DNA from: a virus
Reading direction: 5' to 3' (one strand)
IMG/VR virus record: IMGVR_UViG_3300032294_001929
Coordinates: 1-22,312 of that record
DNA: 22,312 nucleotides
The position numbers were made by a program, and so were the translations under genes. Shown here in pieces: positions 1,450 through 22,312 of this stretch. Every line of letters starts with the position of its first letter. The first letter of the stretch is position 1. The notes beneath the pieces were generated by a model, which saw nothing but the letters and a program-made list of their open reading frames with translations, searched no databases and was not told the DNA's origin.

Positions 1450-2670
1450 ATGAGTGAAAATCAAATAGACATTTGCAGTTTTTGCAATACACATAAAGAC
1501 CATCGTAAAAAACTTATAGTATCTGGCACAGTAGCAATATGTGATTATTGTAGTAATCTGTGTCACGACCTAATAAAAAACGATGCTAAACCAGAAGAAC
1601 TTGAGATTTTGCAACAAGACTCTATAGAAAAAAGATTGCAAGATGTAGACGCTATAAAAATTAAAAAGCATTTGGATGAATATATTGTTGGTCAAGATAA
1701 AGCAAAAAAGGTTTTGTCAGTTGCAATCGCCAACCATTACAAGAGAATTTGTCATCCTAGCACAGATATTAGTATACAAAAGGGTAATGTCTTATTGTTA
1801 GGACCAACGGGGTCTGGTAAAACCTTACTTGCAAAAACTGCTGCTAAATTTTTAGATGTACCGTTCATTATTGCAGATGCTACTAGCCTCACAGAAGCAG
1901 GCTATGTAGGAGACGATGTAGAAAGCATGATAAGTATGTTGTTAAATGCAGCAAACGGAGACATAAATGCAGCAGAAAAAGGTATAGTGTTTATCGATGA
2001 AATTGATAAGATTGCAAGAAAAAGTGAAGGTTCTAGTATAACAAGAGATGTATCGGGCGAAGGTGTCCAGCAAGCCTTATTAAAGTTGATTGAAGGTACT
2101 AAATGCCGCATTCCTGCCAATGGTGGAAGAAAGCATCCAGAGACTGCTATGAATACAATTGACACTAAAAATATTCTTTTTATTGTGGGTGGTGCGTTCG
2201 TGGGTCTTGAAGATATTATTAAAAGAAGAGAAAAGGGCAGCGCAATAGGATTCGGCGCTGATGTTAAAACGAACAATTATAAACCAGATTTGGACTCTGT
2301 TACACCCGAAGATTTAACAAAATTTGGTATGATACCTGAATTTGTGGGTAGATTTGCTACTACTATTTCAATACAAGAATTGGATAAAGTGCAACTCAAG
2401 AAGGTATTGACTGGAGTAAAAAATAACTATATAGCACAATATCAATATTTGCTAAGTTTAGACAATATTGACTTAACTTTTGACGATAGTGCTATAGAAC
2501 AAATAGTATCAAACTGCTTGACTTTAAAGACAGGTGCAAGAGGTCTTCAAACTGAGGTCGAAAGAACACTTATGCCTCATATGTTTAATGTCAGCAAATA
2601 TAAGAAAAAGGGAATAAAAAAGATAAATATTAGTCAAGAATTAGTAAAGGAACCCAAAGAACTATTATGA
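1450..2670 (+). CDS. clpX: ATP-dependent unfoldase ClpX
   Basis: The product is a full-length 406-residue ClpX, close to the 424 residues of the E. coli protein. It has the N-terminal Cys4 zinc-binding domain (C9, C12, C31, C34), Walker A GPTGSGKT (118-125), pore-1 loop GYVG (151-154), Walker B with E184 (FIDEID), the RKH pore loop, the ClpP-docking IGF loop (266-268, followed by GA) and the sensor-2 GARGLQ motif. Family knowledge: a hexameric ring that unfolds tagged proteins and feeds them to ClpP. The kept IGF loop and the clpP gene about 2.8 kb downstream imply a working phage ClpXP, or docking onto host ClpP. No clear ribosome-binding site precedes the ATG; a CTAAGTA box lies 7 bases upstream. 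The last 4 bases overlap the bS21 gene. Confidence 0.97.
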
Positions 2671-2885
2671 ATTTAAATGGTAGAAGAGTAATCGTAAAAG
2701 ACGGCAATGTAGATAAAGCACTACGAAAGTTTAAGAAAAAAATATCAGACAGCGGTATGCTGTTTGAATTACAGCAAAGAGAAAGATATACAAAGCCCAG
2801 TGTAGAAAGAAAAATGGCTAAAAGCATGGCTAAAAAACGCTGGCAAAAGTATCTACAACAGAACAATTTCCCGAACAGCAATTAA
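2667..2885 (+). CDS. rpsU: 30S ribosomal protein bS21
   Basis: The 72-residue protein matches bS21 along its length: an N-terminal VIVKDG strand, the helix [13 protein letters not shown], the segment [16 protein letters not shown], and a basic C-terminal helix ending near KKRWQKY. In bacteria bS21 sits at the 30S platform next to the anti-Shine-Dalgarno end of 16S rRNA and helps mRNA initiation. Phage-encoded bS21 is known from marine phages; it could replace host bS21 on ribosomes and bias them towards phage mRNAs. The start overlaps the clpX stop (ATGA), so the two are translationally coupled; an AAGGA lies about 15 bases upstream. IF-1 and an L7/L12-like protein elsewhere in the window strengthen the translation theme. 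Confidence 0.95.
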
Positions 2886-2895
2886 CCCTAAAATA

Positions 2896-2921
2896 CTAGA
2901 ATTTTTTGCGAAATTCGCTAG
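2896..2921 (+). other. weak hairpin after rpsU
   Basis: CTAG at both ends plus an inner AATTT/AAATT pairing can form a 4+5 bp stem with a small bulge. It is AT-rich and has no T-run behind it. It separates rpsU from the late promoter of hsp20 and could be a weak terminator or an RNA 3'-end stabiliser. Confidence 0.3.
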
Positions 2922-2929
2922 AATAAATA
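2922..2929 (+). promoter_or_regulatory. T4-late-type promoter box for hsp20
   Basis: AATAAATA matches the T4 late consensus TATAAATA at 7 of 8 positions. Transcription would start about 5-6 bases downstream, near 2935, exactly where the structured hsp20 leader begins. The box is short and AT-rich, so the call rests on its position. Confidence 0.55.
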
Positions 2930-2934
2930 CTTAG

Positions 2935-2990
2935 ATAATGATGCCGATTGTCGGGTCATTATAGTCATAACTTGCTTATAAAGGAGAAAT
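2935..2990 (+). promoter_or_regulatory. ROSE-like RNA thermometer in the hsp20 leader
   Basis: The leader starts with a hairpin of 7 bp (2935-2941 with 2956-2962) plus 4 bp (CCGA 2944-2947 with TCGG 2951-2954) around a TTG loop. It is followed by CTTGCTT (2971-2977) facing AAAGGAG (2980-2986, the ribosome-binding site). UUGCU is the conserved anti-Shine-Dalgarno box of ROSE elements, which control ibpA-type small heat-shock genes in alpha- and gammaproteobacteria and pair imperfectly with AGGA through G-G and pyrimidine contacts. The order (leader hairpin, UUGCU, short loop, AGGAG, ATG) fits. The pairing is weak on paper, as expected for a thermometer. I could not fold it by computation. Confidence 0.6.
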
Positions 2991-2993
2991 AAT

Positions 2994-3452
2994 ATGACAA
3001 ACAACACATTAACTTTGCGTTCCTTTGACATTCCGTCAATTAATAAATTCGGCATTGGGTTCGACAACATCTTTGACGAACTGCAACGAATTTCCCTACA
3101 ACAGGGTAATCAGAATTACCCTCCATACAATGTAGTCAAATATGACGAAAATACTTCCGTCATTGAGTTGGCTGTTGCTGGGTTCCGTGAGGGTGATATT
3201 ACGGTAACTGTTGGAAAGAACCAACTTACTATTGTGGGTGAAAAGGTTGAAAATCTAGATGAACTAGACAAGAATGTAGAATATATACATCGTGGTATTA
3301 GTTCACGCAGTTTCAATCGAACATTTGCAATTGCTAACTATGTCGAAGTTACTGGTGCAGATGTAAGTAATGGCATATTGTCTATCAAACTTGAGCGTAA
3401 GATTCCAGAAGAATTGAAGCCAAGGACTATTGCTATTTCTTTCAATAAATAA
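2994..3452 (+). CDS. small heat-shock protein, Hsp20/IbpA type
   Basis: The product is a 152-residue alpha-crystallin-domain protein. It carries the IbpA-like entry motif YPPYNVVKYDE (about residue 43), a conserved AVAGF, the Hsp20 core GILSIKLERKIPEELKPR, and the C-terminal I-x-I anchor (IAI) that locks oligomers. Family role: an ATP-independent holdase that binds unfolding proteins and hands them to refolding or proteolytic machines. Small heat-shock proteins are common in T4-like cyanophages and related marine phages, where a role in virion or scaffold folding is assumed. Here it lies among clp genes, so it may act with phage ClpXP. A strong AAGGAG lies 8 bases before the ATG inside the predicted thermometer. 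Confidence 0.96.
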   Translation: MTNNTLTLRSFDIPSINKFGIGFDNIFDELQRISLQQGNQNYPPYNVVKYDENTSVIELAVAGFREGDITVTVGKNQLTIVGEKVENLDELDKNVEYIHRGISSRSFNRTFAIANYVEVTGADVSNGILSIKLERKIPEELKPRTIAISFNK

Positions 3453-3468
3453 TACAATAGTGACTAAT

Positions 3469-3498
3469 GTGTTCGCAGTCAATCGTGGCTGCGAACAC
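3469..3498 (+). other. perfect 10-bp hairpin between hsp20 and clpS
   Basis: GTGTTCGCAG (3469-3478) and CTGCGAACAC (3489-3498) are exact reverse complements around a 10-base loop. No T-run follows, so it is not a classical intrinsic terminator. It ends 6 bases before the AAAGGA of clpS and may be an RNA-processing, stability or translation-control element. Confidence 0.75.
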
Positions 3499-3520
3499 TC
3501 ACAACAAAGGAACTAATTTT

Positions 3521-3826
3521 ATGGGCACAAAATCAGAAACAATGATTAAAATCAAGACAGATTTGAAGGAACCACCTCTTTACCGTATCATTTATGTAAA
3601 TGATAATGTAACAACAGTTGAGTTTGTGATTGGTTCTTTAATCAACTATTTTGATTATGGATTTGATACTGCAACTGAAATCACAAAGAACATCCATGAA
3701 CAAGGAAGTGCTGTGGTTGCGGTTTTGCCCTATGAACTTGCCGAACAAAAAGGTGTAGAAGTGATTCTTGATGCTAGAAATCAAGGATATCCTTTAGAGG
3801 TTCGGGTAGAAGCAGAAAAAAATTAA
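3521..3826 (+). CDS. clpS: ClpS-type N-degron adaptor
   Basis: The 101-residue product has the ClpS core: PLYRIIYVNDN, TTVEFVIGSL, the helix ending NIHEQG, and the QGYPLEVRVE C-terminus. ClpS binds proteins with bulky N-terminal residues and delivers them to ClpA or ClpC for ClpP. Relative to E. coli ClpS the pocket keeps Asn34, Asp35, Thr38 and His66 (N27, D28, T31, H59 here), but Asp36 is Asn (N29) and the gatekeeper Met40 is Val (V33), which may change N-degron preference. An in-frame ATG at 3467 lies inside the upstream hairpin; ATG 3521 has AAAGGAAC at good spacing, so I chose it. No ClpA or ClpC is in the window, so the partner would be host-encoded or ClpS acts as an inhibitor. The 3' end meets the opposing gene with a 4-base overlap. 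Confidence 0.95.
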   Translation: MGTKSETMIKIKTDLKEPPLYRIIYVNDNVTTVEFVIGSLINYFDYGFDTATEITKNIHEQGSAVVAVLPYELAEQKGVEVILDARNQGYPLEVRVEAEKN

Positions 3827-4515
3827 AGCGTGATATTGATTCTTTTTGGCCAATATACTGAATTTTTCTTATAAGGGTTACTTACATATTTGACGCCTTT
3901 GACAACTGTATCAACAGTTTGTTCATTGCATCCAAACGCCCAGTGTGTAATTTTCATTTCAGTATCATTGCTTAGACAATACCCGGGATATATATGGTCA
4001 TCCACATGTTTTGGCAGTTGTCCAAAATAAAGGTCTTTTTCGGGTATACATGCAGTAATCAATAATATTCTTTTAACATCTAAGTGTCGTTGCAATTTAG
4101 AAACAGAATCACCTAAATATGCTATGTCTTCTAGTCTAGATTTTATTAATCTAGCATCAATGTCATCTAACTTATCAGCACTCCAGCCATTAGCACCTAG
4201 TATAGCAATACCGTCAATAATGACTACATGATGGTATAAAAAAGCAACTTTTGGTAATTTTTTAATAAGTGCTGCTATTTCTTTTGTTCGTGTTTCGTGG
4301 TCAAGTGCTGTTTTATATTCCAGTAGTCCCGGAACATAAAAAACACCTTGGTAAAACTTACTTAAATGAGATAGGACTTGATATAAAGTCCTTAAATCTT
4401 CGCTGACATTGCCTGCAACAATACAATAAAGGCTGGTGCTTTTACCTTCCCAATCAAATTCTTCATTGGGACCTATATTGATATCGTTGATTAAGTCAAA
4501 TCCTATCTCAAGCAC
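3823..4515 (-). CDS. metallophosphoesterase-fold protein without metal ligands (pseudoenzyme)
   Basis: The 230-residue product aligns end to end with the intact phosphoesterase at 11805-12635. CIVAGNV matches LVLSGDI, FYQGVFYVPGLLEY matches HYKHVIYVAGNHEF, VVIIDGIAILGANGW matches KTIDGVTFVGCTLW, ILLITACIP matches IVVCTHMAP, and KGVKYVSNP matches GDTRVVCNP. At the metal sites DLH becomes DLI, GD becomes GN (35-36), GNHE becomes GLLE (63-66), TH becomes TA (154-155), and GHVH becomes FGCN. Only the first Asp survives. It is therefore probably catalytically dead and may bind a partner or ligand. The start is GTG with a weak ribosome-binding site, 2 bases after the upstream minus-strand gene. Confidence 0.75.
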   Translation of the reverse strand: MLEIGFDLINDINIGPNEEFDWEGKSTSLYCIVAGNVSEDLRTLYQVLSHLSKFYQGVFYVPGLLEYKTALDHETRTKEIAALIKKLPKVAFLYHHVVIIDGIAILGANGWSADKLDDIDARLIKSRLEDIAYLGDSVSKLQRHLDVKRILLITACIPEKDLYFGQLPKHVDDHIYPGYCLSNDTEMKITHWAFGCNEQTVDTVVKGVKYVSNPYKKNSVYWPKRINITL

Positions 4516-4517
4516 AA

Positions 4518-4796
4518 TTACTTAGCGACTTTAAGTTTTGGAGTCTTTGCTTTCTTAGCCTTTCCAGCAGCCTTTTTGGCGACTTTCTTTACTTTTTCAG
4601 CGACTTCGACTACATCGGCGGCATTTACCTTACCGTCCTTATTTACATCTAAAACCTCAACTACTTCGGTTTTAACTGTTTCTAGAACGGGTTCAGTATT
4701 AGTAGAGCCCAATTCCTTGTCTACGCTTCTATTTATCAAACGGTAAACAACGAAACCGACAACTAAAACTGCTAATAATCCTAATAACCATGTCAT
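4518..4796 (-). CDS. single-pass membrane protein with one EF-hand (dockerin-like) loop and Lys/Ala-rich tail
   Basis: The 92-residue product starts with a membrane helix (about 3-18), then a short acidic linker, then DVNKDGKVNAAD (about residues 50-61). That is a canonical calcium-binding loop with ligands at positions 1, 3, 5, 9 and 12, as in EF-hands and dockerin repeats. The C-terminus is a Lys/Ala-rich, histone-H1-like tail (KKAAGKAKKAK). Only one loop is present, whereas dockerins normally have two. It may be a calcium-dependent tether at the host membrane with a nucleic-acid-binding tail; this is inference. It has AGGAG upstream and a late-type promoter on the minus strand, and is followed by the pseudoenzyme gene. 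Confidence 0.8.
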   Translation of the reverse strand: MTWLLGLLAVLVVGFVVYRLINRSVDKELGSTNTEPVLETVKTEVVEVLDVNKDGKVNAADVVEVAEKVKKVAKKAAGKAKKAKTPKLKVAK

Positions 4797-4815
4797 ATAA
4801 CTTCTCCTAAAAAAG

Positions 4816-4823
4816 TATTTATT
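4816..4823 (-). promoter_or_regulatory. T4-late-type promoter box, minus strand
   Basis: Read on the minus strand this is AATAAATA followed by C, 19 bases before the start codon at 4796, with AGGAG in between. It would drive the two minus-strand genes and is divergent from the plus-strand box at 4862. Confidence 0.5.
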
Positions 4824-4861
4824 TCTTGGTTAGGGCTTTAATTTTTTTCTTAGAATTGACG

Positions 4862-4868
4862 ATAAATA
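4862..4868 (+). promoter_or_regulatory. T4-late-type promoter box for the SprT-like gene
   Basis: ATAAATA lies 23 bases before the ATG at 4892. With the minus-strand box at 4816-4823 it makes a divergent late promoter pair about 40 bases apart. Confidence 0.45.
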
Positions 4869-4891
4869 TAAGAAACTAACAGGGTATCGGT

Positions 4892-5383
4892 ATGTACCAT
4901 AAAACCACACTTAAAAAGTTGATGAGTGAGGAATTGCCAAGTTTAACTTTTCAGAGAAAGTTGTCATATGTCACCAGTGTAAGAGAAGTCAAAGCACTAT
5001 ACAGACTTATAAATAAAGAGGTTTTTGGAAATAGATTATGTATGCCCCATATAGAAGTTAGACCCAGATTACAGGGTACATGGGGCTTTTGTTTGGGGTT
5101 GGAAGGTCCATATTCTAGAAAAAGAAGTCGTTGTGCCATAGTAATGTCTAGTAGATGGTATTGTAAACAATGGTTAATAATGGCAATAGCACATGAAATG
5201 TGTCATCAATATGAATGGGACATCATAAGTAAGGGCAGAGAAAGAATGGGCTTACCCCCAGTTATGGCGCATGGGCCTACATTTTACATATGGCGCGATA
5301 AATTAAAATCTAAAGGGATTCCCCTAAAAAGACATACATGCCACGAAAAATGGTTTACTAAACAAAGTCTTTTCAAATGCTAG
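4892..5383 (+). CDS. SprT-like zinc metalloprotease
   Basis: The 163-residue product has HEMCH (H101, E102, H105) as the HExxH zinc and catalytic motif and a third ligand candidate in MAHGPTF (H127). The leading segment ALYRLINKEVFGNRL is typical of SprT/Spartan-type domains. Family role: Spartan and Wss1 degrade DNA-protein crosslinks, while bacterial SprT is poorly known. SprT-like proteins are common in phages. No separate zinc-ribbon tail is obvious, though a CHEKW segment with Cys and His lies near the C-terminus. It sits between ClpS and ClpP, so it joins a block rich in protein-degradation genes. A weak AGGG lies upstream. Confidence 0.85.
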   Translation: MYHKTTLKKLMSEELPSLTFQRKLSYVTSVREVKALYRLINKEVFGNRLCMPHIEVRPRLQGTWGFCLGLEGPYSRKRSRCAIVMSSRWYCKQWLIMAIAHEMCHQYEWDIISKGRERMGLPPVMAHGPTFYIWRDKLKSKGIPLKRHTCHEKWFTKQSLFKC

Positions 5384-5400
5384 TAACATAACCATAACAT

Positions 5401-5429
5401 TTGATTTAATAAATCACAATAGTTATACT
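5401..5429 (+). promoter_or_regulatory. sigma70-type promoter of clpP
   Basis: TTGATT (5401-5406), a 17-base spacer, and TATACT (5424-5429). The predicted start near 5436 gives an approximately 18-base leader carrying AGGAG before the ATG at 5454. This implies that clpP can be expressed by unmodified host RNA polymerase, unlike genes with late boxes. Confidence 0.75.
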
Positions 5430-5453
5430 TGATTTTTATTTACAGGAGTTACT

Positions 5454-6047
5454 ATGAGCCTTGTACCTATTGTTTTGGAACAGACTAGCCGCGGCGAACG
5501 CAGTTATGATATCTACAGTCGTTTATTGCGTGACCGTGTAATCTTGCTTGAAGGCGAGGTTCATGACCAGATGGCAAATCTGATTGTTGCACAATTGCTT
5601 TATCTTGAAAGTGAAAATCCTGAAAAGGATATTAGCCTTTACATCAACAGCCCAGGTGGTAGCGTAACTGCTGGTATGGCGATATATGATGCTATGCAAT
5701 TCATTCAGCCTGATGTAAACACTATTGTCATGGGTCAAGCATGTTCAATGGGCAGTTTGCTTGCGCAATCTGGAGCAAAGGGCAAGCGTATGATTCTACC
5801 CAACGCACGACACATGATTCACCAGCCAAGCGGTGGTGCTAGAGGTCAGGCAACTGACATGGAAATTCAGGTTCGTGAAATCATGGAAATGAAAAAGAAT
5901 CTTACTAACATCTATGTAAAGCACAATAGTGCTAGCAAAACATATGAAGAATTGTCAAGAGATATGGAACGAGATTATTTCATGAGTGCTACACAAGCAC
6001 TGCAATATGGTCTAGTAGACAAGATTATTGAAAAAAGACCCAGTTAA
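5454..6047 (+). CDS. clpP: ATP-dependent Clp protease proteolytic subunit ClpP
   Basis: The 197-residue serine peptidase has the catalytic triad S98 (in CSMGS), H123 (in MIHQP) and D174 (in DMERD), with the N-terminal [15 protein letters not shown] and the [15 protein letters not shown] strand/oxyanion region. The protein begins [16 protein letters not shown], which lines up with the mature N-terminus of E. coli ClpP ([15 protein letters not shown]). It therefore lacks the usual 14-residue propeptide and should not need autoprocessing. Two residues are inserted between His and Asp relative to E. coli. It likely forms the 14-mer chamber for the phage ClpX in this window. AGGAG lies 8 bases before the ATG, and a sigma70-type promoter drives the gene. 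Confidence 0.97.
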
Positions 6048-7350: not shown

Positions 7351-7917
7351 GTGAATACCGAAGAACTAAAAACTTACGCTGGTTTGTTTGGTAGTATGAA
7401 TGATATACTCCGTTACTTAGCACAAGGCAACGACGATGATTTGCTGGTTAAATATTTGTCTACTTCTCAGGAATATGCATATTATTGTGCAAGATATGTC
7501 ATTAAAGGTAGATGGCCAGAAGGCGAAAAAGCGATTGCCAAAGATCCAATGTGTGCATATCGTTATTCAAGTCTAGTCATCAACGATAGATTTCCAGAAG
7601 GTGAAAGTGCAATTTCCAAAGTTCCAGCAATTGCATATCAATATGCAAGATTTGTCATCGGGGGTAGATGGCCACCAGGCGAAAAGGCAATTGCTAGAGA
7701 TCCACATCATGCATATTATTATGCAAAAGATGTCATTTATAGCAGATTTCCAGAAGGCGAAAAGGCGATTGCCAAAGATTCATGTTATGCATATCTTTAT
7801 GCAACAAAGGTCATCAAAGGAAGATTTGCAAGGTATAAGTTTTTGTGTATGGCATCATTTTACAAGCATTACATAATAAGGTACCCCGCTACTTACAAGT
7901 TTAGGAATAAAGTATGA
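7351..7917 (+). CDS. 26-residue-repeat protein (short form)
   Basis: I chose GTG 7351 because AGAGGG lies just before it; an upstream in-frame ATG at 7240 would overlap the preceding gene by over 100 bases. The 188-residue protein has four full 26-residue repeats and one broken one, from about residue 43, with consensus AYxYAxxVIxGRWPEGEKAIAKDPxx. The same repeat forms the C-terminal half of the 565-residue protein at 20579-22276. The pattern (two short amphipathic helices per unit) suggests an alpha-solenoid like TPR or Sel1 arrays, a binding scaffold. The fifth unit runs only to GRF and then changes to an unrelated, hydrophobic 22-residue end, suggesting truncation by recombination or frameshift. 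Confidence 0.85.
   Translation: MNTEELKTYAGLFGSMNDILRYLAQGNDDDLLVKYLSTSQEYAYYCARYVIKGRWPEGEKAIAKDPMCAYRYSSLVINDRFPEGESAISKVPAIAYQYARFVIGGRWPPGEKAIARDPHHAYYYAKDVIYSRFPEGEKAIAKDSCYAYLYATKVIKGRFARYKFLCMASFYKHYIIRYPATYKFRNKV
7477..7830 (+). repeat. in-gene 78-bp tandem repeats
   Basis: About 4.5 units of a 26-codon repeat. A 17-base segment at 7653-7669 is identical to segments at 21583-21599 and 21661-21677 in the distant paralogue, so sequence has been exchanged or recently duplicated. Confidence 0.85.
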
Positions 7918-14921: not shown

Positions 14922-15476
14922 ATGCGAATCAATGAAGTTACAAACAACGATATTCCACACCTTTACCTAGATATGGATGGTGTTCAGGCTGATTTTTTTA
15001 CTGCATGGGCTAATCTAAACGGGGTAAACCGTTATAAAGAAATAGGTAACAAAGAAGCCCGTGAACAAAGCATTACTGACTTGACTAGTCGTGGACCAGA
15101 GTTCATTGAAAACTTCTTTGCTAACCTAGAAGTTTTGCCCAATTTTCATGTATTATTAGACTACCTACAGACTAGGGGTATACCCTATACTATATTGAGT
15201 GCACCTTTGCGTGATAATCATGAAGCAAGCATAAAGGGCAAAAAAAGATGGTTAGATAAGCATCATCCCGGTGTCAGCAATAATGCTATATTTAGGGGTG
15301 ATAAGGAACGATATGCTGTAACAAACGGTAGACCCAATGTATTGGTTGACGACCATAAAAAGTATATCACACGCTGGGAAGAAAAGGGCGGTATAGGGGT
15401 ACTACATAGAGACAACAATCCTCAACTTACAATCGACAGACTAGAGGAAATATATTCACCCTATCTAGATAAATAA
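14922..15476 (+). CDS. HAD-type 5'(3')-deoxyribonucleotidase-like phosphatase
   Basis: The 184-residue protein has the HAD nucleophile motif LDMDG (D17, D19), a motif-II-like ILSAPLRDN, a motif-III lysine region (KGKKRWLDKH) and the acidic motif NVLVDDHKKY. These match 5'-nucleotidases of the NT5C/YfbR-like phage group that dephosphorylate deoxynucleoside monophosphates. Next to dCMP deaminase it could tune nucleotide pools. I chose ATG 14922 because it lies 5 bases after a perfect late box; 14919 is equally open and 14898 would overlap the previous gene. The N-terminus MRINEVTNN slightly resembles the leaders of later genes but lacks an IxE site. Confidence 0.85.
   Translation: MRINEVTNNDIPHLYLDMDGVQADFFTAWANLNGVNRYKEIGNKEAREQSITDLTSRGPEFIENFFANLEVLPNFHVLLDYLQTRGIPYTILSAPLRDNHEASIKGKKRWLDKHHPGVSNNAIFRGDKERYAVTNGRPNVLVDDHKKYITRWEEKGGIGVLHRDNNPQLTIDRLEEIYSPYLDK
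15469..15475 (+). promoter_or_regulatory. T4-late-type promoter box
   Basis: ATAAATA overlaps the stop of the nucleotidase gene and lies 22 bases before the ATG at 15498. Confidence 0.45.
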
Positions 15477-15497: not shown

Positions 15498-17249
15498 ATG
15501 ACTGATTTCAGAAAACTTCTAAACATTATACAAGATAATAGCAGCGAAGGAATTGAGCAATATGACTGCTTTGATATTGAGTTGGGTGAAGATTTATTGA
15601 TTGAGACCGGAGTACTAGATGTCACAGAAGACAGTATCCTATTAGAAGCCGATGATAAAGCATTAGAATTGTTGTCTAAACACGGCGTAAAATTAAACGA
15701 AATCAGTAAAGCAAGGCAGTTATTTCCAAATTGGAATGACCCAGAAACAAAAGAATTTTACGATAAGCCAACTTTTCAGCGTATAAAGAGCGGGGAAACA
15801 GAACCAGTAGTCACTACTGATTATGATACATCTCCTAAATTGCGTCAGCCACAGCGTACCAGTTTTAAAAACTATGAAGACTGGCGCAGATATCAGATAG
15901 CACAGTTAAAAAAAGCAACTGAAAGTATGTCAGAAGGCCAGTTAGTGTCTGGTCCGTGGTTGGGTTCGGGCGAGGAAGGGGTAAGTGTTGATGAACTAAC
16001 TAATAAATTTTTAAAATCATCTTTTAATCATAGTTATTTTGCTAATGACCAAAAAGCATTAGATGAGATTACACACGATGTAAGAAGATTTTTACTTAAT
16101 TTAGAAACTACCAATAAAGCCTTTAAATTGCCAAGTGGCAAGTCAATCGAAGATTTAGTTAAGTCAATTTCGCATAAAGTTCATAATTCACTAACTAGCG
16201 AAACGAACCCTGATTTAAACGAAAATCGCCGTAAAAAATCACCATTTAATAACCCAGATGAATTAGCACGCCGTGCAGAATTGAAAGCTAGAGATCCCAA
16301 TAGATCACTTTTAGGTAAAGACGGTATATATGGTAACGAGTATAAACAGAAAGATCGTTATGGAGATATGTACAAGATTGCAGGTCCAAAGGGAGAGTTG
16401 CCTGAGAATACAGACAATGATGATTTAGACGAAGCAAAGTCAGGTAATACTCATGAAGACTATATCAAACTATTGGCTAAGTATGGAATTAAGCGCGTTC
16501 AACATGATAATGATTCGGAATTTGAATTTATCGACCAAGAATCTTGGTTACAAGGACCTCTTCAAAAAGAGTTCTCAAAAAAAGAAAGACATGCTATAGC
16601 AAAATCATTAGGAATGCGACCACAGTATTCTGGCAGCTCTTGCCATTTTTCAAAAGATAATCATTTATTATGGTTTGATGAAAAAATAAATCCAGTGACT
16701 ATGCAACATGATGTTGCTCTTCGCACAGAGAAAGACAGACAGATGGATGAAGCCAAATATCGTGGTCGTTCTGTTGAAGAAATCGAAGCCGACCTTGCGG
16801 CAGCATGGCTTGAGGTGTTCAATGTAAATATAAAGACCATGCAGAGAGCATTGGGAAAGAAGGCAACGGGGACCGGAACATGGAAGGCTGCGCGAGGGGC
16901 GTGGGATGAGGTAACAGGAGAAACGGCAAAGCGTATCGATGACCTCAAAGCCGAACTCAAGCAGGCAAAACAGGCAAAGAAAAACAAAAAGTCAGAGTTG
17001 GATGAAGCCAAATATCGTGGTCGCACAGTACCACTAGGAAAACCATTTTTGACACCAGATGGACCAAAAAAACGAGCTGTTTATGTAAAAAAACCAAACG
17101 GCAATGTAGTCAAAGTAAACTTTGGCGATAAGAAAATGCGCATTAAGAAGTCTAATCCAAAAAGACGCAAAAGTTTCCGTGCAAGACATAACTGCAAAAA
17201 CCCGGGGCCGAGATGGAAAGCAAGATATTGGTCATGTAGAAGTTGGTAA
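15498..17249 (+). CDS. large modular phage protein with repeated LDE-A sites and basic Cys C-terminal domain
   Basis: The 583-residue protein appears modular. Sites of the form (L/M)xE-A occur at LLE50-A, LDE312-A, MDE418-A and LDE503-A; the last three share DEAK and two share DEAKYRGR. (L/I)xE is the cleavage consensus of the T4 prohead protease gp21, so this may be a head polyprotein or scaffold cut into modules. Module 313-415 is a small mixed domain, 419-500 a coiled coil, and 504-583 a basic domain ending RARHNCKNPGPRWKARYWSC, a pattern I have seen in structural-region proteins of marine phages. The coiled-coil module lies between 25-bp direct repeats and is more GC-rich, suggesting insertion. 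The function is not established. Confidence 0.75.
   Translation: MTDFRKLLNIIQDNSSEGIEQYDCFDIELGEDLLIETGVLDVTEDSILLEADDKALELLSKHGVKLNEISKARQLFPNWNDPETKEFYDKPTFQRIKSGETEPVVTTDYDTSPKLRQPQRTSFKNYEDWRRYQIAQLKKATESMSEGQLVSGPWLGSGEEGVSVDELTNKFLKSSFNHSYFANDQKALDEITHDVRRFLLNLETTNKAFKLPSGKSIEDLVKSISHKVHNSLTSETNPDLNENRRKKSPFNNPDELARRAELKARDPNRSLLGKDGIYGNEYKQKDRYGDMYKIAGPKGELPENTDNDDLDEAKSGNTHEDYIKLLAKYGIKRVQHDNDSEFEFIDQESWLQGPLQKEFSKKERHAIAKSLGMRPQYSGSSCHFSKDNHLLWFDEKINPVTMQHDVALRTEKDRQMDEAKYRGRSVEEIEADLAAAWLEVFNVNIKTMQRALGKKATGTGTWKAARGAWDEVTGETAKRIDDLKAELKQAKQAKKNKKSELDEAKYRGRTVPLGKPFLTPDGPKKRAVYVKKPNGNVVKVNFGDKKMRIKKSNPKRRKSFRARHNCKNPGPRWKARYWSCRSW
16744..17023 (+). repeat. 25-bp direct repeats bounding an in-frame module
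   Basis: Bases 16744-16768 and 16999-17023 are identical and lie 255 bases (85 codons) apart, in frame, both encoding DEAKYRGR. The DNA between is visibly more GC-rich than the flanks. Loss or gain of the module by recombination between the repeats would keep the frame. Confidence 0.9.
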
Positions 17250-18727: not shown

Positions 18728-18760
18728 CTCGCATTTATTGACTAAATACATAAATGCGAG
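18728..18760 (+). promoter_or_regulatory. 11-bp hairpin hiding the start codon of the superoxide dismutase gene, with a late box in its loop
   Basis: CTCGCATTTAT (18728-18738) and ATAAATGCGAG (18750-18760) are perfect reverse complements around an 11-base loop that contains CTAAATA (18742-18748). The right arm includes the ATG at 18754. RNA reading through from infA forms the stem and hides the start; RNA started at the CTAAATA box (start near 18754) lacks the left arm and exposes it. Confidence 0.8.
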
Positions 18761-19308
18761 ATATAATCAACCTAATAGAAAGTCAAAACCGTAGTCAAGA
18801 TATAGAGATAATACCTCTTAACTTTGACTACAAAGAAGTCAGTCCTGTATTATCCAAAGATACACTAGACTTACACTACGAAAAACTAGCCAAAGGCTAC
18901 GCAACTCGTTATAACAAAAACGAGGGCGATAAAGATTTCAATTATGCAGGAGTCTTCTTGCATAACTTATTGTTCACTCAATACCGAGAAGTTCGTAATA
19001 CCAATAATCCCAATGGACCTATGAAGGGCTTTATAGCAAAGCATTTTGATTCTTTAGAAGATATGAAACTTGCTTTTGAAGAAGAAGCCATGAAGTTACA
19101 GGGTAGTAATTGGATATATCTAGCATACGACGGCAAGATAAAGACCATACACAACCACGAAGTTCGTGATGACATACTACTATTAGTAGACTGGTGGGAA
19201 CATGCGTGGATATTAGATTATGGTTCTGATAAGAAAAAATATCTCAGAGAGCAGTGGAAAATAATCAACTGGAATGTGATAAACACCAGGTGGGGAAAAA
19301 GTCTATGA
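18754..19308 (+). CDS. Fe/Mn superoxide dismutase with a capsid-targeting-like leader
   Basis: The 184-residue protein matches the Fe/Mn superoxide dismutase family: IIPLNFDYKEVSPVLS, LHYEKLAKGY, FNYAGVFLHNLLF, MKLQGSNWIYLAYDG and the signature DWWEHAWILDYG. All four metal ligands are present (H41, H70, D146, H150). The distance from H41 to H70 is 29 residues against 47 in E. coli SodB, so the helical hairpin is shortened. It converts superoxide to peroxide and oxygen. The first nine residues (MRDIINLIE) precede the normal dismutase start and end in LIE, like a prohead-protease site. The start codon lies in a hairpin, 5 bases after a CTAAATA box. It overlaps the next gene by 4 bases. Confidence 0.88.
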   Translation: MRDIINLIESQNRSQDIEIIPLNFDYKEVSPVLSKDTLDLHYEKLAKGYATRYNKNEGDKDFNYAGVFLHNLLFTQYREVRNTNNPNGPMKGFIAKHFDSLEDMKLAFEEEAMKLQGSNWIYLAYDGKIKTIHNHEVRDDILLLVDWWEHAWILDYGSDKKKYLREQWKIINWNVINTRWGKSL

Positions 19309-19637
19309 AGATAAACGAAATCAAAATAGTTACAGAGGCAAAAGATACCTATATAGAGGGTACTAATTGTCTTAACTGCAAATGGGCATTACAAGAAAAG
19401 ACTAAAGTAGACCCTAAAGAATTAGACCCAAACGGCGGACTAAAGATTACAAATAAAGAAGATTTGAAACATGCAGCCGAGGGTGATTTAGTCACTCTTC
19501 CTGGAAAGAAACACAGCAAGTATAAGTTTTATTGTGAGCATAACAAAATAAAACAATTTGTAACAGAAAGAATGTGCTGCTTGTATTGGGACGCAGAAGG
19601 TGTGTATAGAGCATTTGGTAAATCAAGGTTAGATTAA
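19305..19637 (+). CDS. Cys-rich protein with capsid-targeting-like leader
   Basis: I chose ATG 19305 (ATGA overlap with the dismutase stop, GGGG upstream) rather than the in-frame ATG at 19254. The 110-residue protein starts MKINEIKIVTE-A, a leader ending in VTE before Ala, and has five cysteines: C22-x2-C25, C77, C91 and C92, with VTLPGKK and VTERMCCLYWDAEGVYR. The spacing recalls small iron-sulfur proteins such as HiPIP, but I cannot confirm that; a zinc site is also possible. Following a superoxide dismutase, a redox function would make sense (inference). Confidence 0.8.
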   Translation: MKINEIKIVTEAKDTYIEGTNCLNCKWALQEKTKVDPKELDPNGGLKITNKEDLKHAAEGDLVTLPGKKHSKYKFYCEHNKIKQFVTERMCCLYWDAEGVYRAFGKSRLD

Positions 19638-20327
19638 ATGAAATCAATTGAATTCATAGATGAAGCACCTCTTCCCGTTGATTGGGATAAAGAAAAACTA
19701 AGTCTAAATCAAACTTTCAAAGACAGACTTAGATATGCGCTTGACCGTGCCAAACGAATTGGGGGCGGTAGCAGTCGTGTTGCTATGATTATAGAATATG
19801 AAGGGAGACCAACCGTATTAAAAGTGGCTAAGAATAAAAAAGGTCTAGCACAGAATGAAGCAGAAATCGATATATTAAAAGACGGATACATTGGAAGATT
19901 GCCTATTGTTATTCCACTGATTGACTATGATAAAACTAACAGACAACCTGTTTGGCTACAGACAGAACTCGCTAGAAAAGTATCTTCACATACACTACGA
20001 AAACTATTACATACACCTAGTATGTGGTTACTTGCTGATAAGGTTAAAAATATATTAGGGTTCAAAAATCCTAGTTATAGCGATGAATATATAAGGCAAC
20101 ACTACTTTACTAGTTATAACAACTTATGGAAACCTACAGAAGAAGATTGGAATATTTTCAATAAATACGCCAGCGAATTTGCTGATTTGGTGAACTCTAG
20201 CGGGGTGGACATATACGATTTAGAAAGGGCTACAAATTGGGGAGTTTATAATGGTAGACCAGTAGTTATTGATTTGGGCTTCACTGATGTAACAAAGGCT
20301 TTATATCACGCCTGGCGCCCCTGGTGA
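19638..20327 (+). CDS. protein-kinase-fold protein with capsid-targeting-like leader
   Basis: The 229-residue protein opens MKSIEFIDE-A, close to T4 internal-protein leaders. The rest fits a small kinase fold: Gly-rich loop IGGGSSRVA (about 41-49), a strand with Lys (VLKVAK, K62), a helix Glu (NEAEID, E74), a hinge-like VWLQTELA, a catalytic-loop-like DLERATNWG (D194, N200) and a DFG-like VIDLG (D212). D to N spacing is 6 rather than the usual 5, so activity is uncertain; it could be a pseudokinase. It would modify or bind host proteins if injected. It starts directly after the previous stop. Confidence 0.7.
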   Translation: MKSIEFIDEAPLPVDWDKEKLSLNQTFKDRLRYALDRAKRIGGGSSRVAMIIEYEGRPTVLKVAKNKKGLAQNEAEIDILKDGYIGRLPIVIPLIDYDKTNRQPVWLQTELARKVSSHTLRKLLHTPSMWLLADKVKNILGFKNPSYSDEYIRQHYFTSYNNLWKPTEEDWNIFNKYASEFADLVNSSGVDIYDLERATNWGVYNGRPVVIDLGFTDVTKALYHAWRPW

Positions 20328-20357
20328 TGTTGAAAATTTCGTCAAAGGTAGCATAAA

Positions 20358-20582
20358 ATGAATTGGGAAAATGAATTAGCACAATGGAAAGTAATAGCAG
20401 GTATTACTAATAACAAAGGTGAACCTGCCTTTTATCCTGCAGAACCTGAAAACATATCCCAACTTATAAAAGACAAGAATATTAAATATGGTAGCCGTGA
20501 ATATATAGATAATGTATTTGCTAGAAATCCCAGCGACATAAGCATGCCTGCAGGCTTTAGGGGTAGGAAGAAATCAAGATGA
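20358..20582 (+). CDS. small hypothetical protein
   Basis: I do not recognise this 74-residue protein: a Trp-rich helical start (MNWENELAQWKVIAG), a middle with Pro and Asn, and a basic end (GFRGRKKSR). It has AAAGG as ribosome-binding site, overlaps the 565-residue gene by 4 bases (ATGA) and so is translationally coupled to it. It lacks the MKSxEF leader of its neighbours, so it may be a partner or chaperone rather than cargo. Confidence 0.75.
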   Translation: MNWENELAQWKVIAGITNNKGEPAFYPAEPENISQLIKDKNIKYGSREYIDNVFARNPSDISMPAGFRGRKKSR

Positions 20583-22276
20583 AATCAGTTGAATTCTTGT
20601 TTGAATACCGTAGAGATGTAACTGCTCAGAAACTGGGAGATAAATTACTTGCCAGTGCTAAAAGAGAAAACATCACCGATATAGACAAGATTCTTGCTAC
20701 TTTAGAGGACATGGACCCAACCCCAAACAAGCAATACACATTATGGATTGCTAATCAATATAACAAAGGTCAGTTCAGACTTGAAGACAAACCACGAATC
20801 AAGACCGCACTTGAAAGATTCATGCAAGCAAAATCTAGATTACCAGAAAAAGACATAGGCAGATATGACTTTTATCAACTAGAAAATGCTATGGAGAAAA
20901 TCTTTAATCCAGATGTGGGTAAGCCAGAACCTCAAACAGTTGATACATTTGAGATACCTAATGAAATCAAAGACGAAGTAGAAGTGTTATATAATGGACC
21001 ATTGGGGTTACTTGTTGTACCAAAAACAAAGAAAGCCAGTTGTGTGTTAGGTAGCGGTACTCGTTGGTGTACTGCAGGAAGAGAAGACAACATGTTTTCT
21101 ACTTATAATCGTAGAGGTCCATTATATATATGGCGTGATAAGAACGGAGAGAAATATCAGTTTCATTTCTCTAGCAATCAATATATGGACAAACAAGATA
21201 GACCAATACCAAACAAATTGATGAGTTATTTCAGCAACAAGCATCCTGTACTGAAAAAACTATTTGATTTAAGATTAAAGTATATATTTGAAAAAAAGAG
21301 ACCTATGTATACTATAATAGAGTTTGTTAAAAATACACAAAAAATATTACCTAAAGAACTAGAAGACATCATATTAAAAAATCCTGAACGCGCATTGATA
21401 TATTATTCGTATGTTAAGAAAGATAGATGGCCTAAACTAGAAAAGATTATTCTTGATAAATCAAATGTTAAGTTAGCATTTCGTTATGCAAAAAATATGA
21501 GTAGTAAAGTAGCAGGGAGATTTTTAAAAGGAGAAAGTCTAATTGCTAAATATGGAGGTTGGGCACTTGAATATGCAACGAGTGTCATCGGGGGTAGATT
21601 CCCTGAAGGTGAAAAAGAAATTGCCAAAGATCCATTTTTTGCCTACGAGTATGCAAGAAGTGTCATCGGGGGTAGATTCCCTGAGGGCGAAAAGGCACTT
21701 GTTGAAAATCCATATTTAGCAATTGAGTATGCACAAAATGTTATTAAAGGCAGATTTCTAGAAGCAGAAGATAATATCGCTAATGATGCTAACACTTCGA
21801 TACGATATGTTGATGCAATAAGACGCAGATTTCCAAAAGGAGAAAAATTATTTGCCAAAAATGCAGAGTTAGCAATTAAGTATGCTTTACTTGGCCTAAA
21901 AGGTCGTAGATTCGAACAAGGAGAAAATGTAATCGCTAAAGATCCAAGAGTTGCATATTTCTATGCAAAAGGGGTTGTCAAAGGCAGATGGCCAGAAGGA
22001 GAAAAAGCAATTGCTACAGATCCGGACTATGCGTATAGATATGCAAGAGATGTAATCGACGGCAGATGGCCAGAAGGAGAAAAAGCAATTGCTAAAGATG
22101 CAAAATCTGCGTTTCACTATGCATTACATGTGATTGAAGGCAGATTCCCTAAAGGCGAAAAAGCAATCGCAAACACCATAGGTTTTAAGAATGACTATAA
22201 AAACTTTTTGGCACGGCTAAAAAGAAAAAAGAAATCAAGCAAGAGTAAAAATGAAGTCAGTCGAATTTATAAGTGA
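20579..22276 (+). CDS. 565-residue protein: leader, WCT domain and 26-residue repeat array
   Basis: Layout: leader MKSVEFLFE (1-9), a helical region (10-110), a beta domain with SCVLGSGTRWCTAG (154-167) followed by PLYIWRDKNGEKYQFHF and DKQDRPIP, then about ten 26-residue repeats (270-532; consensus AYxYAxxVIxGRWPEGEKAIAKDPxx) and a Lys/Arg/Ser-rich tail. I have seen the GTRWCTA plus YQFHF module in other phage and marine sequences without known function; the conserved W-C-T and His suggest an active or binding site. The repeat array resembles an alpha-solenoid scaffold. If the leader is cut, the protein would be head cargo. The 3' end overlaps the next gene by 26 bases. Confidence 0.8.
   Translation: MKSVEFLFEYRRDVTAQKLGDKLLASAKRENITDIDKILATLEDMDPTPNKQYTLWIANQYNKGQFRLEDKPRIKTALERFMQAKSRLPEKDIGRYDFYQLENAMEKIFNPDVGKPEPQTVDTFEIPNEIKDEVEVLYNGPLGLLVVPKTKKASCVLGSGTRWCTAGREDNMFSTYNRRGPLYIWRDKNGEKYQFHFSSNQYMDKQDRPIPNKLMSYFSNKHPVLKKLFDLRLKYIFEKKRPMYTIIEFVKNTQKILPKELEDIILKNPERALIYYSYVKKDRWPKLEKIILDKSNVKLAFRYAKNMSSKVAGRFLKGESLIAKYGGWALEYATSVIGGRFPEGEKEIAKDPFFAYEYARSVIGGRFPEGEKALVENPYLAIEYAQNVIKGRFLEAEDNIANDANTSIRYVDAIRRRFPKGEKLFAKNAELAIKYALLGLKGRRFEQGENVIAKDPRVAYFYAKGVVKGRWPEGEKAIATDPDYAYRYARDVIDGRWPEGEKAIAKDAKSAFHYALHVIEGRFPKGEKAIANTIGFKNDYKNFLARLKRKKKSSKSKNEVSRIYK
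21386..22174 (+). repeat. in-gene 78-bp tandem repeats, about ten units
   Basis: The 26-codon repeat degrades towards the 5' side and is best kept in the last units. The segments around 21984 and 22062, one period (78 bases) apart, share more than 30 identical bases, and 21583-21599 and 21661-21677 are identical to 7653-7669, pointing to recent duplication or gene conversion. Confidence 0.88.
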
Positions 22277-22312
22277 GCAAAGCCCAAACACCATTTTTGG
22301 TAGTTTTACTAA
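22251..22312 (+). CDS. start of another gene with the MKSVEFISE leader, cut by the window end
   Basis: ATG 22251 opens a frame that runs to the window end and begins MKSVEFISEQSPNTIFGSFT. The first nine residues match the leaders at 19638 (MKSIEFIDE) and 20579 (MKSVEFLFE). GAGTAAA precedes it, within the tail of the 565-residue gene. Only 20 residues are visible, so nothing can be said of the body. Confidence 0.7.
   Translation, partial: MKSVEFISEQSPNTIFGSFT

Follow-up and report, generated by a model that had tools for sequence, protein, structure and literature searches.

A T4-like N-terminal leader that probably marks head-packaged, injected cargo in very large freshwater bacterial viruses

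Several genes at the 3' end of a 22.3-kb virus contig, IMG/VR record IMGVR_UViG_3300032294_001929 (the whole stretch of 22,312 nucleotides is referred to here as the window), begin with a short leader resembling the capsid targeting sequence of phage T4, and they are clustered behind a gene for an Fe/Mn superoxide dismutase (SOD). In a set of bacterial viruses from freshwater, all of very large size, this leader, called EF-type for its Glu-Phe core, recurs as a portable tag at the start of dozens of proteins that are unrelated to one another. It probably marks cargo that is packaged in the head, cut and injected, multi-module proteins probably being split by the prohead protease. The basis for this reading is the leader itself, its modularity, constraint at the protein level, a prohead protease in relatives, cleavage-like sites at module starts, and the dismutase and kinase folds; from these, packaging, cleavage, injection and the roles of the enzymes in the host are inferred.

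The EF-type motif is defined as M-K/R-x(2,3)-E-F-I/L/V-x-E at the N-terminus. In six sequences (the window and five related phages of 267-367 kb), for which a simple gene caller gave 1,815 proteins, the motif opens 22 proteins, two to six per sequence, where 0.027 would be expected with residues 2-16 shuffled and 0.013 from internal positions. For the window alone, two of 38 called proteins start with the motif (p = 4e-8). A DNA scan of 3.0 Mb, independent of the gene caller and using a slightly wider motif, found 113 matches, with start codons ATG (105), GTG (8) and TTG (0), and 111 of these stayed open over 60 codons or more; the reversed sequence yielded two matches, neither of them open. 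Removal of duplicates left 88 distinct proteins, whose bodies form 24 clusters, and thus the search for further M(K/R)xxEFxxE genes proposed in the initial annotation was fruitful. As a positive control, the motif finds T4 ipII and ipIII. On the strand of the dismutase gene, 67 matches lie 0-3 kb downstream of it and none lies on the opposite strand; because some loci are near-duplicates, these are not independent counts. Synonymous codons at leader positions 5, 6 and 9 are used as in the protein bodies (Glu 0.81/0.19 versus 0.80/0.20, Phe 0.68/0.32 in both), so that selection acts on the peptide and not on the nucleic acid. Codon 2 is AGA in 80 of the 88 leaders, compared with 42% of Arg codons in the bodies. 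A looser pattern, hydrophobic-x-Glu near residue 9, was dropped as evidence because it is only about 2-fold enriched over a background that is too high.

In T4, the first 10 residues of the capsid targeting sequence suffice, with residues 4 and 7 serving targeting and residues 8 and 10 processing, and the internal proteins that carry it are a precedent for ejection into the host (PMC9026906). The likeness to IPII, IPIII and Alt lies in a short leader with EF(I/L)xE, a cut after hydrophobic-x-Glu and the sharing of one leader by unrelated proteins (PMC9026906); here too, proteins of a single genome that have nothing else in common share one leader, and its closing hydrophobic-x-Glu precedes a small or varied residue. 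Judged by sequence, the EF-type genes would thus qualify as bearers of a T4-type capsid targeting sequence. The initial annotation erred in giving IPI the start MKTYQEFIxE, which is limited to IPII and IPIII; IPI begins MKTFKEFTSTTTPVSTITEA. T4 gene 61.1 (NC_000866.4, 18966-19130, minus strand), a hypothetical protein of 54 residues, begins MKTFKEFIKE-D, the leader type of ipII and ipIII, and is possibly an overlooked internal protein. Whereas the T4 internal proteins are single and small, the cargo described here is far more numerous and varied, its cluster is headed by an SOD, and its modules are accompanied by internal sites.

Reading of the window translations confirmed the residues of all five leaders that had been assigned to the cluster at their coordinates (Table 1). 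Their description as T4-like held for the kinase, 565-aa and partial genes, which are EF-type, and failed for the dismutase and Cys-rich genes, whose leaders lack the E-F core. PHROGs supplied no functional name for any of the five proteins.

Table 1. Features of the cluster and of the candidate polyprotein upstream of it (window coordinates)
Feature	Position	Strand	Basis or remark
TAAATA, late-promoter-like	18743..18748	+	5 nt upstream of dismutase start
Dismutase leader MRDIINLIE, predicted cut before S; divergent type without E-F core	18754..18780	+	I5 and E9 invariant, 62/62
Fe/Mn superoxide dismutase, 184 aa	18754..19308	+	Pfam PF02777, PF00081; metal ligands
Cys-rich protein, 110 aa, leader-like MKINEIKIVTE-A	19305..19637	+	open reading frame
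Leader of kinase protein, MKSIEFIDE then A; predicted cut after E9	19638..19664	+	homologue comparison
Kinase-fold protein, 229 aa	19638..20327	+	AlphaFold2, Foldseek, invariant residues
74-aa protein without leader, within cluster	20358..20582	+	open reading frame; two weak relatives
Leader MKSVEFLFE of 565-aa protein, then Y	20579..20605	+	EF motif match
565-aa protein: N-terminal domain, then GRFPEGE-type repeats	20579..22276	+	homology to PA5oct EST35_0205
Fifth leader gene (partial), MKSVEFISEQSPNTIFGSFT, MKSVEFISE-Q; interrupted by window end	22251..22312	+	sequence read
Candidate polyprotein, 583 aa, 5' of cluster	15498..17249	+	conserved ends, unrelated middles in relatives
Candidate site LDE-AKSGN, residue 312 of 583-aa protein	16425..16433	+	
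Candidate site MDE-AKYRGR, residue 418 of 583-aa protein	16743..16751	+	
Candidate site LDE-AKYRGR, residue 503, before basic C-terminal module	16998..17006	+	kept in both relatives

The first gene of the cluster is predicted to encode a genuine Fe/Mn superoxide dismutase, with Pfam matches to Sod_Fe_C (PF02777, 5e-21) and Sod_Fe_N (PF00081, 3e-6) and with the metal ligands H41, H70, D146 and H150 kept in all 62 distinct relatives. Public viral contigs of up to 524 kb contain 107 relatives, and in each of the 80 that were kept the alignment includes residue 1, the leader reading MRDIIxLLE. The fold begins near residue 17, and the leader and linker are therefore an N-terminal addition, as had been supposed at the outset; the SOD of Vibrio phage 2.275.O lacks it. 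In the 62 relatives, leader residues I5 and E9 are invariant and residue 7 is L or I. Given the 2-fold enrichment of the loose motif, it is this conservation of E9 and I5, and not the motif, that supports the dismutase leader. Among 61 distinct upstream sequences, 37 have TAAATA at a distance of 4-7 nt from the start, where about 0.9 would be expected over the whole 30-nt stretch, and NATAAATA is found upstream of many structural-looking genes in relatives. Since TAAATA ends only 4-7 nt from the SOD start codon (18743-18756 in the window, and in relatives too), the transcript may be nearly leaderless. In cellular genomes, the sole SOD relative found (59% identical) is on the 3.9-kb contig JAPLPS010000046.1 (L316, a Polaromonas metagenome-assembled genome from a lake), possibly a mis-binned phage fragment.

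Phages PA5oct and MIJ3 encode a homologous SOD of 37% identity with an extension of its own, MNDSIKKYISIAE then A, that in PA5oct is independent and ends IAE-A; the protein is annotated there as detected by electrospray ionization tandem mass spectrometry (ESI-MS/MS). Genes for ClpX, Hsp20 and ClpS directly precede this SOD (PA5oct 169742-173527), and the same gene types occur in the window, where translations at 1450-6047 include ClpX-, Hsp20-, ClpS- and ClpP-like proteins. The PA5oct genome differs in having no EF-type leader anywhere. A role for the dismutase leader as a packaging signal is the weaker part of the proposal, suggested by its position, the late-promoter-like element, the invariant Glu and the PA5oct extension. 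There is an appreciable, if minority, chance that the dismutase is an ordinary late stress enzyme of the infected cell, bearing an extension unrelated to packaging, with only its neighbours as cargo. Such an enzyme would accord with a leader that lacks E-F (position 6 is Q, T, N, K, S or E) and is no more conserved than the remainder of the protein, with the leaderless Vibrio phage SOD, and with mass spectrometric detection in PA5oct, which may be carry-over; it accords less well with E9 and L/I7 in 62 of 62 relatives, with the place of the gene at the head of a cargo cluster and with the independent PA5oct extension.

For the third cluster gene, modelling confirmed the protein-kinase fold proposed in the initial annotation. 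The AlphaFold2 model, built with 38 phage sequences, has a mean predicted local distance difference test score (pLDDT) of 88.5, and its best Foldseek matches among solved structures are protein kinases (E 3e-5, probability 1.00). Residues 1-4 score below 50 and no secondary structure precedes residue 18, which places the leader outside the folded domain in the model and answers the question of whether it belongs to one. G42, G44, K62, E76, D194, N200 and D212 are invariant among the 38 sequences, as is E9, and the Gly-rich loop, Lys, Glu, catalytic Asp/Asn and DxG of protein kinases are all present. An earlier model from 11 sequences reached a pLDDT of 60 with no usable structural match, and comparison of the sequence itself with solved structures gave nothing meaningful. 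The window kinase has no Pfam match to Kinase-PolyVal (PF18762), for which the best cargo protein scores 21.1 bits against a cut-off of 27, and no member of the family was found in 84,980 cellular genomes. All 12 of the first-found homologues sit in leader proteins, several with other modules between leader and kinase; in phages Slicko01 and XacN1 the mature kinase is preceded by MKIYNLYSTLLE and MKQVRLSQFLSE, respectively, both leaders ending in hydrophobic-x-Glu.

The bodies of leader proteins match Pfam families of ADP-ribosyltransferases, GNAT acetyltransferases, GH19 with LysM, SLT transglycosylase and amidoligase, and weakly ASCH and Kinase-PolyVal; no embedded peptidase was found above cut-off in 40 cargo proteins scanned. 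Each module that directly follows a leader was also sought inside other proteins, which gave 59 distinct internal boundaries from about ten unrelated modules, not all independent. Hydrophobic-x-Glu falls exactly at the module start in 32 of them, compared with a local-shuffle mean of 1.8 (maximum 9) and 1.7% per position. A larger collection of the kinase family, drawn from viral contigs and overlapping the first set in part (59 loci), has 45 readable starts, and in 44 the site immediately precedes (M/V/A)PLPxxWD, whether as the leader's own end or with other modules, together as long as about 540 residues, in front of it. At the internal sites, P5-P4 are not E-F, which excludes their interpretation as remnants of fossil leaders. 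The 583-aa protein of the window resembles its relatives in the N-terminal 66 and the basic C-terminal 80 residues, while the middles are unrelated, and (L/M)DE-A precedes the conserved basic end. Sites at module starts suggest that these are cargo polyproteins which the prohead protease would cut apart; such processing, overlooked in the initial annotation, is the most novel part of the finding. The fuller proposal, that injected effectors are leader-tagged polyproteins whose modules are swapped as cassettes between relatives and freed by the prohead protease in the assembling head, the SOD being a conserved component of what is injected, is given about even chances. An alternative with a smaller but appreciable chance keeps the leader as real and reads the module-start sites as linker composition or recombination scars in cargo that stays uncut. 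Linkers rich in acidic and hydrophobic residues, the dependence among the boundaries and the 27 of 59 without an exact site fit that explanation, which is opposed by the peak at the exact position over unrelated modules, by the Glu at P1 invariant in 38 kinase sequences and by the absence of E-F at P5-P4.

A Peptidase_S77 (gp21-type) prohead protease, alignable with T4 gp21, was found in all eight relatives larger than 200 kb, bearing out the expectation that one would accompany the leaders, and in all seven isolates tested; Slicko01 and XacN1 both encode one. In one relative (G001) the protease gene adjoins genes for a coiled protein resembling a core protein and for a capsid protein of the gp23 type. 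Likeness to T4 at the level of the phage extends to both protease and capsid protein. The capsid propeptide carries LLAE-S in five genomes; by analogy with FLTE-A of T4 gp23, this may be its cut site. Capsid proteins of 58-67% identity occur in isolates that include PA5oct, 121Q, GAP32, CBB, RaK2 and Atu_ph07. A motif scan found no EF leader in the CBB, RaK2 or PA5oct genomes, and its absence from CBB and RaK2 makes it a trait of part of the lineage; for the same reason the virion proteomes of these two phages are unusable as a test. Alishewanella phage Slicko01 (OQ508956.1) has nine genes with leaders of the MKIDxLYESLLxE type, eight of them neighbours (85888-91558) and one apart (97101-97559). 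Several of their bodies begin with YHST/FHAT-like motifs that resemble ADP-ribosyltransferases, with no Pfam match. The likely core protein of Slicko01 (139259-140068) begins MKEDLKQLFESVVLNEES, similar to the leader, which may therefore mimic the N-terminus of the core protein itself.

Packaged proteins might also remain in the head, the leader being a propeptide for the prohead protease on core or DNA-condensing proteins that are never injected. Some proteins with leaders or sites do have a structural or strongly basic appearance, as the 583-aa protein has in its C-terminal module, and one family has a PA5oct counterpart annotated as structural. Enzyme bodies (SOD, ADP-ribosyltransferase, GNAT, kinase, transglycosylase) have no obvious structural use, and the T4 precedent is ejection, which renders permanent residence in the head improbable. 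The N-terminal domain of the 565-aa protein is 39% identical to PA5oct EST35_0205, annotated as a structural protein and as detected by ESI-MS/MS; no relatives of this domain were found in viral contigs, and nothing was found to support the scaffold role first suggested for the protein. The annotated detection of this homologue and of the SOD in PA5oct gives the packaging of both partial support. Least credible of all is a leader that functions at gene starts as DNA or RNA, in recombination or translation, to which the AGA excess at codon 2 would lend itself, as codon use at positions 5, 6 and 9 excludes it and other lineages have other leaders with the same hydrophobic-x-Glu end.

Several observations weigh against the reading of the leader as a mark of injected cargo. 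The window is a fragment that does not reach the prohead protease gene, and in CBB and RaK2 a capsid protein of this type and the protease are present, yet no EF leader. The leader-like start of the Cys-rich protein, MKINEIKIVTE, lacks E-F and, as this protein has no relatives in viral contigs, is unsupported by comparison. The PA5oct list of detected proteins includes ribonucleotide reductase, thymidylate synthase and FtsH, enzymes that were probably carried over, and leader-like starts show no significant excess among the proteins listed (6/93 versus 6/218, p = 0.11); for both reasons, enrichment in that proteome was dropped as evidence.

Other features of the window touch on the same proteins. 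The GRFPEGE-type repeats of the 565-aa protein (20579-22276) recur in a leaderless protein at 7351-7917. A 5'-nucleotidase-like protein (14931-15476) begins MRINEVTNND, and its homologue in one relative (G008, 6103) begins MKIKELFE-N, so that the enzyme may serve as cargo in only part of these phages.

Three further systems bear comparison. Polyvalent proteins of phages and conjugative elements have been proposed to be packaged and injected, and were compared with polyproteins by their authors; their multi-domain build and their ADP-ribosyltransferase, kinase, GNAT and peptidoglycan-degrading domains overlap the present repertoire (PMC5512222). Their release was proposed to occur through embedded peptidase domains (PMC5512222), in place of which a leader and prohead-protease-type sites are found here. 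The N-terminal 30 residues of P1 DarB are enough to send a reporter to the capsid; DarB differs in phage lineage and sequence and is a single very large protein (PMC9024508). Chlorovirus PBCV-1 has a Cu/Zn SOD, A245R, described as late, virion-packaged and tied to lower superoxide in infected cells (PMC7019647). It is of another metal type and from a eukaryotic algal virus, and the passage on it describes no capsid-targeting leader (PMC7019647). In literature since 2017 that names the capsid targeting sequence, no comparable cargo set is apparent from titles and abstracts, a coverage that mostly leaves aside subscription papers.

The proposed course of events concerns a phage group of the T4 lineage whose core is T4-like and whose prohead protease is of the gp21 type. 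Their leader, about 9-13 residues long, with a sequence particular to each lineage and hydrophobic-x-Glu at its end, would mark proteins for co-assembly with the core in the prohead; the protease would cut after the leader's Glu, and the mature protein would stay in the head. As a portable tag, the leader would serve unrelated enzymes, many clustered behind the Fe/Mn superoxide dismutase, and the same protease would probably split multi-module cargo at the hydrophobic-x-Glu sites of module starts. Cargo and DNA would then reach the host together, as is the case for T4 Alt and the internal proteins; injection is argued from this T4 precedent only. By analogy with PBCV-1, an injected SOD might detoxify superoxide at the start of infection.

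If this reading is true, the head-packaged effectors of huge phages could be read from sequence, the leader identifying cargo and hydrophobic-x-Glu sites delimiting its mature pieces, and this would offer a route to listing unknown enzymes that act early against the host and its defences. Beyond capsid maturation, the prohead protease would gain a role in the processing of effector polyproteins, and the system as a whole would be a natural means of delivering proteins by way of a highly permissive tag. The dismutase would be a candidate for a phage SOD delivered with the DNA, and the question of what large phages inject could be put to a direct test in Alishewanella phage Slicko01, an isolate in culture.

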